NCBI GenBank assembly: GCA_921293015.1
Contig: OV121091.1
Span: 31,728,839-31,792,838 of the forward strand
From: Phorcus lineatus
Taxonomy: Eukaryota; Mollusca; Gastropoda; Trochida; Trochidae
Direction of reading: 5' to 3'
DNA length: 64,000 bases
The notes under the pieces were generated by a model. It saw only the letters and a program-made list of their open reading frames with translations, searched no databases and was not told the origin of the DNA. Positions 32,880 through 40,743 of this stretch are shown here, piece by piece. Every line of letters starts with the position of its first letter. The first letter of the stretch is position 1. The translations under genes were made by a program, and so were the position numbers.

Positions 32880-35285
32880 TTAAGATTTGTTTTCATCTTT
32901 CCCTTTCTCATCGTCATCGTTGTCATTATGTGTATGCCAAGTAAGTCTCTCCTCATAGAATGCAATTACTATCTGCGGACACTTTACATTTGCTTGTCTT
33001 GCAGGCACCAAATCTGCCTCGTCACTGTCTTTCCTACAACACAAACCAGTGATTATTACATTGAATCATAGCTATGACTTCTGATTTACAACACAATTAG
33101 TTGAGAAAGGTGGTTCAGAATGCGAGTCATTACAATATAACATTATGGCAAACTGAGGAAATTCATAACAATTTCAGATTCCTAACTTGAACTCTTAAAA
33201 CTGTTCAGGGCCTACATCCCTGAAACTCTTAGTCAGAATGCACCTTAAAAGCTATATGAAACTTGTTTTAATTAATATAAGAAGGCGGCGCTTGACGTCT
33301 TGTCTAAATTAAGTTTTGTTTAAGGATAGCAACATGGGGATCCACTGAAGGATAGAGAGACGGTACCAACAAAAAGTTGGGTAGAAATTGAATAGAGAAA
33401 AGAGCAGCCATCAACCAAGGCAGTTATCAGCAAAAAAGCCAGAAAAATGATGTTACATGTTTCGGAGTCGGTCTGATGAAGGAGTCAACGGACTCCGAAT
33501 CAAGTAACATCATTTTTCTGGCAGTTTTATTGCGGATAACTACCTGGGTTGATTGCGGCTCTTTCCTCTATTTGATTTTGTTTCAATTAAATTATGCAAC
33601 TTGCCAACCATTCAATGAACTGATTAATGAGCATTTAGTCAGTTTCCCAACTACTCCTATGAGCATCTAAAGTTTTGATGGAAATAACTAATATAATGTT
33701 AACATACCACTTCATTAGGAACATGAGTTCACCACTACTGTCAGTGGCTCCTATAATTCTCTCTGGTTGTAGACCCCTGTCAAAGCCTCTTGGTTTATTA
33801 TCATCTTCCTAGACAACACAGACATTTTTTTAACAAACAAATTCCTAAAAGAAAAATCATATCTTTACTAATTCCAAATGTATAAAGAGAGAGGGCGCCT
33901 ATTATGTCGAATACAATAGTCAATTTCAATGGCCAATAGTTTCTTCTCAACAATAGACGTCTCCATGGATGAAAACTACATTATATAATAATTCACAATG
34001 AAACAGATGAGTAACAAGAAAATGATTAAGCTAATCTAAAAAGCAATCATGTGTTATTTTCTGGGGAATAACTATTCCTAAATAGTATTTAAAATGCAAC
34101 ATACTGTTGTTTTGACTTCAGCTACTTTTTTCTTCTTTTTAGCAGATCCATCATCCATTCCATTTGCCTGTTTTCGTTTCTTTTCTTGTTCTTTCTTTTT
34201 CCTCTTGTCTTCATAATCTGCGATCAGATCCGGACAATCTAAGTTTTCTTCTGGTTCCCACGTGTTTTCAGAACTGGAACAAAAGTTGTAAACATCAGAT
34301 ATGCTCAGAGCAACAATCTTACTGCTCTTGCTGAATAGGAATGGATGGAATATTAAAGACGCTTTTCACGTGCTTCAGATGCTTTCCATTAACCTTTGTA
34401 TGAATGTGAATAAGGAAGGTCACTTTCTCAATCCAACTTTTACTTCCAACATTTTTCATTTTTAGGTTCAGTGTAAATTATTTTAATAGGTTGAAACTTG
34501 ACATAATTGCAAGGCACCAAAATCACAACTATGAAAGAAACAAGAAAAGTTAGCAGGCAAAAATTGACTTTTTATTTTAATAATCATCTTTTGTAAATGG
34601 TAAGGTTGTAATTTGACAAAGTTAATGAGCCTTAAAGTGACGAGTTTATTTCATACTTCTATACGTGGCTTAAATGAGAGCCAAAACATCATCTCCAATG
34701 AATAAGTTCAAATATCATCTTTAAACTAGCATGTGTCTATACTGACAAAATAGAGTATTTTCCTGCTTTCAATGGCAGCAAAAATAACGTTGTATAAATG
34801 TTAAGAATTTGACATTCTGTGTGCGGTTTACATGAATATTAGTTAAATGACCTACTTAATACTTTTGTCTCGGTGCCTGCTGTAGATAAGTTTAAAAAAT
34901 TATGATAGTCATTGGTGTGCATCATTGTCCAGTTTTCAATCATGAATTACAACTTATACCTGTTTATTGTCTCTATACCAACTGATAGGCCCTAAAATGA
35001 TGATTTTTAGAAACAACCAATACTTCTCTATAAATTTACATCATTTCTAAAGTTTTACATATCTGACTATAACATTATCTATGTACCTTTAAACAACAAG
35101 CAAATAGTATGCATGTCTGGTATTACAACTTACTCTGGATATCCCTTCCATTTGAGTAGGTATTCTTTCTTTCCATTCCTCATGCGTCCATCCACCACCT
35201 TCTCCACTGTGTATTCCTCCTCCTCCTCTTCCTCCTCTGGTTCGATCACATCTTCGTTGATGTCTTTCTTCGTCTTCTTTCCCAT
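32880..35285 (-). CDS. CBX: Heterochromatin protein 1 (chromobox CBX1/3/5 type), 191 aa
   Basis: Coding exons are 35285-35134, 34273-34105, 33808-33708 and 33033-32880; all junctions keep frame. HP1 reads histone H3 lysine-9 methylation and dimerises to recruit silencing partners. A Glu-rich N-terminus leads into the chromodomain (about 25-75), whose aromatic cage Tyr25, Trp46 and Tyr49 has the exact spacing of fly HP1 Y24/W45/Y48, then [13 protein letters not shown]. The hinge is strongly basic ([17 protein letters not shown]). The chromoshadow domain (about 115-174) has [20 protein letters not shown] and [16 protein letters not shown], with Ile164, Tyr167 and Trp173 at the dimer/PxVxL interface. 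A 5' noncoding part starts at acceptor 35296, with an upstream noncoding exon ending at 37448. A 60-nt candidate exon at 36069-36010 may be an alternative. Human CBX5 is also 191 aa. Confidence 0.96.
33383..33580. repeat. Long inverted repeat with hammerhead-like core, in CBX intron
   Basis: The arms (about 33383-33455 and 33502-33580) are complementary with scattered differences and a perfect inner stretch AGAAAAATGATGTTAC. The centre has CTGATGA (33473-33479), then a GGAGTC/GACTCC stem with an AACG loop (33481-33496), then GAA. That order, CUGAUGA-stem II-GAA, is the conserved core of a hammerhead ribozyme. Here the base after GAA is T, whereas the mirrored left arm reads GAAACATG. Hammerheads of this kind are known in Penelope-like retroelements and small retrozymes. 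Activity is unproven. Confidence 0.55.
34634..35063 (+). repeat. Dispersed repeat, copy 1 (in CBX intron)
   Basis: About 430 bp similar along its length to 53187-53640. Shared blocks include CTTAAAGTGAC, AGTTAAAT, AGTCATTGGTG, CACTGTCC/CATTGTCC, and GAAACAACCA followed by TACTTCTC. There are no coding features. It is probably an old nonautonomous element. Confidence 0.7.

Positions 35286-40743: not shown

Follow-up and report, generated by a model that had tools for sequence, protein, structure and literature searches.

A divergent HP1 and hnRNP A gene pair in the gastropod Phorcus lineatus, with a candidate shared promoter and probable bilaterian ancestry

Our analyses support the presence in the gastropod Phorcus lineatus of an inherited divergent pair of HP1 and hnRNP A genes, for which one shared constitutive promoter constitutes the most likely explanation (probability about 0.72). 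The pair was studied in a stretch of 64,000 nucleotides, hereafter the window (C17:31728839-31792838), of an assembly of 957.8 Mb in 74 contigs, and its divergent arrangement at this place is confirmed. The first-pass annotation had described complete HP1 and hnRNP A/B genes lying head to head, and both spliced frames, their domains and their orientation bear this out; that reading was correct in its main point and is strengthened by evidence from the Hox chromosome. The mollusc pair thereby joins the known class of conserved divergent gene pairs. The features on which the argument is built are as follows.

32880..35285, minus strand: HP1 (CBX1/3/5-type) coding region, a spliced open frame of 191 aa
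37448..37560, minus strand: predicted non-coding first exon of HP1, donor GCAT/GTAAGT, 5' end drawn arbitrarily
37200..37840, no strand: candidate shared bidirectional promoter, from a CpG peak and motifs
37841..40743, plus strand: hnRNP A coding region, a spliced open frame of 373 aa

The HP1 gene is complete, its four coding exons on the minus strand (35285-35134, 34273-34105, 33808-33708 and 33033-32880) being joined by GT/AG junctions into a frame free of internal stops. The protein carries an N-terminal chromodomain (Pfam Chromo, E 8.3e-24) and a C-terminal chromo shadow domain (Chromo_shadow, E 8.4e-31), both above the Pfam cut-offs, which places it in the HP1 family (CBX1/3/5), and its nearest solved protein is human CBX5 (E 2.6e-57, with an alignment spanning residues 2-187 of 191). 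Genome-wide, the chromo shadow profile matched only this gene (10 of 10 candidates scored), in a search worked exon by exon that a split or divergent domain elsewhere could escape; it is thus the sole gene with a detectable chromo shadow domain in the P. lineatus genome. When the HP1 protein was used as a genome query (150 of 185 candidates scored), its own four exons ranked top, followed by a match on contig C11 with 45% identity. The latter was rejected as a second HP1, since Chromo is accompanied in its frame by Pre-SET, the combination seen in SUV39 methyltransferases. Of the 148 matches of the chromodomain profile in the genome, many fall within one uninterrupted frame about 1,300-1,800 codons long, and many of the remaining hits of the HP1 query likewise lie in long frames, which were taken for mobile elements. 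The same origin was rejected for the HP1 of the window, a spliced gene with two domains and the sole chromo shadow match. A 41-nt inverted repeat (33432-33528, arms 88% complementary, 15-nt gap) lies in the intron between the exons bounded by 33708 and 33033.

The hnRNP A gene is likewise complete, with eight coding exons on the plus strand (37841-37852, 38456-38745, 38897-39017, 39127-39334, 39620-39718, 39957-40043, 40229-40468 and 40679-40743) and seven of seven introns bounded by GT/AG. It codes for two RRM_1 stretches (Pfam) followed by a Gly-rich C-terminus, the tandem RRMs and glycine-rich tail of the hnRNP A/B family (A1/A2B1/A3 type). Its nearest solved proteins are hnRNP A1 (E 4.1e-68) and then A2/B1, and it is 56-59% identical to A1/A2B1/A3 versus 41-43% to Musashi/hnRNP D. 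Three hnRNP A genes were recognised in the genome, namely that of the window, which the first-pass annotation had described correctly, and a tandem pair at C11:50408650-50429659 (50.41-50.43 Mb), which it had left out. Over the RRMs, identity to the window gene is 66% for one of the tandem genes and 71% for the other. No HP1 match was found in the 30 kb examined around them, and within that scope an HP1 neighbour is present at the window hnRNP A gene only. One of the C11 genes, at 60-61% identity and on a shorter branch, is slightly nearer to human A1/A2B1/A3 than the hnRNP A gene of the window. In the hnRNP A tree the three mollusc genes group together (89/96), and the fly protein forms the neighbouring branch (91/92); with one of eight inner branches well supported and most forks unresolved, this weak tree singles out none of the three as the direct vertebrate counterpart. 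Seven weaker RRM matches, with 23-46% identity, lie on C1, C2, C13 and C39 and presumably belong to other RRM families.

The two genes lie head to head without an intervening gene, stop-to-stop frames wholly between their start codons being at most 73 aa long. The distance of under 400 bp proposed in the first-pass annotation holds for the donor of a predicted HP1 exon, which lies 392 bp from the hnRNP A ATG, but not for the start codons, which are 2,555 bp apart. This non-coding first exon, ending at 37448, is likely on the evidence of its splice signals: on a donor matrix its donor scored 4.26, more than nine of the ten coding donors of HP1 and hnRNP A, and ranked third among 138 GT sites in 35290-37840, behind those at 36275 and 36009. 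It would join the acceptor TTTGTGTTCAG upstream of the HP1 ATG, with exon 2 beginning at 35296 or 35290, and it falls within a CpG-rich peak. Its position is consistent with two divergent start sites, themselves predicted, less than 1 kb apart. With one chromo shadow match and three hnRNP A genes placed at random, a divergent placement within about 400 bp would be expected some 6e-7 times (3 x 400 x 1/2 / 958 Mb).

The candidate promoter stands out in base composition. Within 37200-37840 the CpG observed/expected ratio (o/e) rises to 1.8 in 400-bp windows and to 2.3 in 200-bp windows, versus 0.5 for the whole window; the 400-bp windows from 37251, 37301 and 37351 have a ratio of 1.67-1.81 and 20-22 CpG versus a median of 5 (1,272 windows). 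Among the 25 CpG-richest 400-bp windows, the seven with the highest ratio are all at the HP1/hnRNP A core, and those located between the two genes start at 37.15-37.50 kb, none falling at 35.3-37.1 kb. Other CpG-rich sites were found at 19.6-19.95 kb, in a MULE transposase frame (up to 23 CpG, G+C 0.52-0.57, o/e 0.66-0.76), at 4.0-4.1 kb (19-20 CpG, o/e 0.84-0.92) and at 14.85 kb (18 CpG, o/e 1.30). A further CpG-rich stretch, 51351-51950, with 18-19 CpG per 400 bp and a ratio of 1.13-1.30, has no gene assigned to it and is a candidate promoter in its own right. A vertebrate CpG island has a G+C content above 50% and a CpG o/e above 0.6 over 200 bp or more. The promoter core exceeds the ratio (up to 1.8) and falls short in G+C (0.32-0.40); because of the latter it was not assigned as a ubiquitous chromatin-opening element (UCOE).

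GABPA, MYC, E2F, NRF and YY1 have been listed for bidirectional promoters and CBX5/hnRNPA1 (PMC4721113). Six motif patterns were scored over 37250-37841, a region of our own choosing, and four of the six classes were found: one YY1 site (37272), one E2F site (37554, minus strand), two E-boxes (37726 and 37759) and one NRF1-like site (37501), the last deviating from the full consensus by two mismatches. The NRF1 half-site TGCGCA and ETS had no match within the same region. Four classes were attained by one of 1,000 shuffles and by none of 623 other windows. Individually, the E-boxes stood out with P 0.007 and the NRF1-like site with 0 of 1,000 shuffles, while YY1 (P 0.13) and E2F (P 0.12) were unremarkable. 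TATA-like strings occur in the candidate region at 37357 and 37640. As a genome-wide DNA query, with very common words skipped, the promoter stretch had one match at E 0.001 or better, which led us to reject a recognisable promoter copy at the hnRNP A genes on C11. The CpG-rich core with its E-boxes, E2F, YY1 and NRF1-like sites is consistent with one shared promoter, and composition and motifs suggest that HP1 and hnRNP A may share a promoter of open chromatin.

Several other features were observed in the window. An open frame of 469 aa encoding FLYWCH and MULE transposase domains occupies 18936-20342 (plus strand, G+C about 0.55). Two long open frames that adjoin at 45737-48337 (minus strand; 646 aa and 220 aa) matched neither Pfam nor NCBIfam and may represent an undescribed mobile element. 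A match to an HRG-type haem transporter (SLC48A1-like) at 22069-22404 (plus strand) scores just at the Pfam cut-off. Judged by eye, an exon at 16044-16283 that resembles part of a membrane protein, with no Pfam match, may belong to the same gene. A frame with a double-stranded RNA-binding domain at 11697-12047 (minus strand) resembles ADARB1 and ILF3, and a 351-aa open frame at 59370-60422 (plus strand) consists mostly of one repeat unit, about 39 residues long, and looks like a coding minisatellite with no Pfam match.

A UCOE is defined by stable expression of linked transgenes, resistance to silencing and freedom from methylation. The first-pass annotation had pointed to an equal arrangement of human CBX3/HNRNPA2B1 and CBX5/HNRNPA1, and it was right in this, as both human promoters are described as bidirectional, the former spanning 0.4 kb (PMC4721113); the mouse Cbx3 and Hnrnpa2b1 genes are reported to share a 3 kb CpG island (PMC2877046). 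The mollusc locus resembles HNRNPA2B1-CBX3 (A2UCOE) in the head-to-head placement of an HP1 and an hnRNP A gene, in the short intergenic region, in the CpG-enriched core and in HP1 start codons located downstream of the first exon, as found in mouse and predicted in the mollusc. It differs in that the 3 kb vertebrate island is methylation-free with an anti-silencing effect reported (PMC2877046, PMC2080639), whereas the mollusc CpG-rich stretch covers only a few hundred bp at 32-40% G+C. With CBX5-HNRNPA1 (A1UCOE) it shares gene families, orientation and YY1, E2F and MYC/E-box motifs, but the human promoter is described as TATA-less and overlapping CpG islands (PMC4721113), in contrast to the TATA-like strings and low G+C of the mollusc. 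As a control we took TBP-PSMB1, a further human divergent locus for which resistance to silencing has been reported (PMC2080639). TBP was located on C7 by its core exons, its 5' end not having been located, and PSMB1 gave no significant match (lowest E 6.2) within the 30 kb searched there, some 26 kb of which lie upstream of those exons; this would suggest, though not conclusively, that not every silencing-resistant divergent pair is found in this genome.

The ancestry of the pair was assessed from its chromosome. C17 represents 5.2% of the assembly. At 21.0-22.0 Mb, some 10 Mb away from HP1 and hnRNP A, it carries ten Antp-type homeodomain matches that share one orientation, an array that we read as the Hox cluster. 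In vertebrates COPZ is a Hox-flank gene. The four families tested from Hox or Cbx flanks all had their best match on C17: COPZ at 20.74 Mb, the CNC-bZIP gene NFE2L at 10.41 Mb, CDK5RAP3 at 38.83 Mb and SNX10/11 at 40.35 Mb, for which independent random placement gives a probability of 7e-6. For SNX10/11 a first search had given a near tie between C1 and C17; the C17 match comprises two same-strand exons, one at 61% and one at 43% identity, and that on C1, presumably SNX27-like, a single stretch at 36%. Genes searched for other reasons were located away from C17, namely TBP on C7, haemocyanin on C12 and the tandem hnRNP A pair on C11; the haemocyanin profile (PF14830, Haemocyan_bet_s), a molluscan domain, had 16 matches on C12, in support of the molluscan source that the first-pass annotation had inferred. 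In a cichlid, cbx5-hnrpa1-nfe2 is reported 3' of HoxCa, and snx11-cbx1-nfe2l1-cdk5rap3 beside HoxBb (PMC2080641), and Cbx and Hnrnpa are treated as Hox-syntenic genes across vertebrates in a study of the hagfish that used amphioxus orthologues as tree outgroup (PMC10927551). The same families thus lie on one mollusc chromosome, and the pair shares its chromosomal ancestry with the vertebrate pairs, but the cichlid flanks are packed beside Hox, whereas in the mollusc the flank markers lie some 7-21 Mb from the pair and are spread over about 30 Mb, with only HP1 and hnRNP A adjacent. The ancestral Hox chromosome accordingly appears recognisable yet reshuffled over some 30 Mb, and the dispersal of the markers while HP1 and hnRNP A stay adjacent argues for local constraint. 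The location of the pair on C17 with Hox, COPZ, NFE2L, SNX10/11 and CDK5RAP3 supports its inheritance from the bilaterian ancestor rather than by chance. The earlier proposal that the pairing predates the protostome-deuterostome split is thereby supported; this linkage speaks to chromosomal ancestry and not to gene order, for which an ancestor already head to head would be the simplest reading.

Different evolutionary scenarios might nonetheless explain the arrangement. An independent formation of the pair by rearrangement in the mollusc lineage, which would reduce its likeness to the vertebrate pairs to mere resemblance, could draw on the frequency of bidirectional neighbours in amphioxus (PMC6292497), on the tandem C11 genes, with no HP1 match in 30 kb and one of them nearer the human proteins, and on a tree that gives none of the three hnRNP A genes as direct counterpart. 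We consider it unlikely, given the very small chance of re-forming the exact pair in the same orientation and its location on the chromosome of Hox and of four of four tested flank families. Ancient neighbours with separate promoters, HP1 starting within 35.3-36.3 kb, would account for the two higher-scoring HP1-strand donors (36275 and 36009, both above 37447) and for the TATA-like strings, and these, together with the 2.6 kb between coding starts, the low G+C and the indecisive tree, are also among the points that stand against a shared ancestral promoter. The position of the top-25 CpG windows between the genes and the mouse Cbx3 gene, whose start codons lie in its exons 2 and 3 and which has a CpG island in common with Hnrnpa2b1 (PMC2877046), make separate promoters improbable.

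A less improbable alternative, though still one that we hold only tentatively, is that the pair is ancestral but was kept for the co-expression of cooperating proteins, and not for a promoter that cannot be split; it overlaps with the preferred explanation, and the odds of the two are not mutually exclusive. HP1 and hnRNP A would share target transcripts and both work in heterochromatin, with selection against their separation. In Drosophila, where HRB87F is an hnRNP A/B protein, the genes for HP1 and hnRNP A/B are not known to be linked even though the proteins interact, which we count against this alternative. In its favour, HP1a is reported to co-immunoprecipitate and colocalise with HRB87F, both having roles in heterochromatin and on transcripts, and Hrb87F mutations to suppress position-effect variegation (PMC2743825). 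Expression of human CBX3 and hnRNPA2B1 is described as highly correlated in the NCI-60 panel, but that of CBX5 and hnRNPA1 as not significantly so (PMC4721113), and Hnrnpa2b1 protein is reported unchanged in a mouse Cbx3 hypomorph (PMC2877046), which shows that regulation is separable rather than that co-expression brings no benefit. The functional partnership of HP1 and hnRNP A is a serious complement to a shared promoter.

Under the preferred explanation of an inherited pair with one shared constitutive promoter, the pair would have been present in the bilaterian ancestor on a Hox-bearing chromosome, and vertebrate genome duplications would have copied it into CBX3/HNRNPA2B1 and CBX5/HNRNPA1, while the mollusc kept one copy. 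Both genes, coding for housekeeping nuclear proteins presumably expressed in all cells, would be driven divergently by one short promoter region rich in CpG, whose shared core would be nucleosome-free, unmethylated and constitutively active in serving both directions, so that separating the two transcription units would cost one of them promoter sequence. In amphioxus, 25% of neighbouring genes are reported to share bidirectional promoters, which makes the arrangement common in itself, and of 372 putatively ancestral ones most are reported lost in vertebrates (PMC6292497), for which reason retention in both mollusc and vertebrates would be notable. A bolder extension, which we regard as doubtful, holds that the HP1-hnRNP A promoter is a unit of bilaterian age or older, whose open-chromatin function predates vertebrates, that vertebrate UCOEs were inherited from it and that the mollusc element resists silencing.

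No HP1/hnRNP A pair in any invertebrate appeared in the titles or the first lines of abstracts among the matches listed from open-licence PMC texts, and term searches of the main-text portions of PMC8851819, PMC2871058 and PMC6292497 returned no naming of these genes. If the arrangement holds in other phyla, head-to-head contact would have been kept since the bilaterian ancestor despite reshuffling over tens of megabases, which would point to a promoter that is hard to split in evolution and would date the origin of the arrangement behind an anti-silencing element used in biotechnology. The pair also offers a natural way to test what keeps divergent promoters in place, whether shared promoter sequence or the functional partnership of HP1 and hnRNP A.
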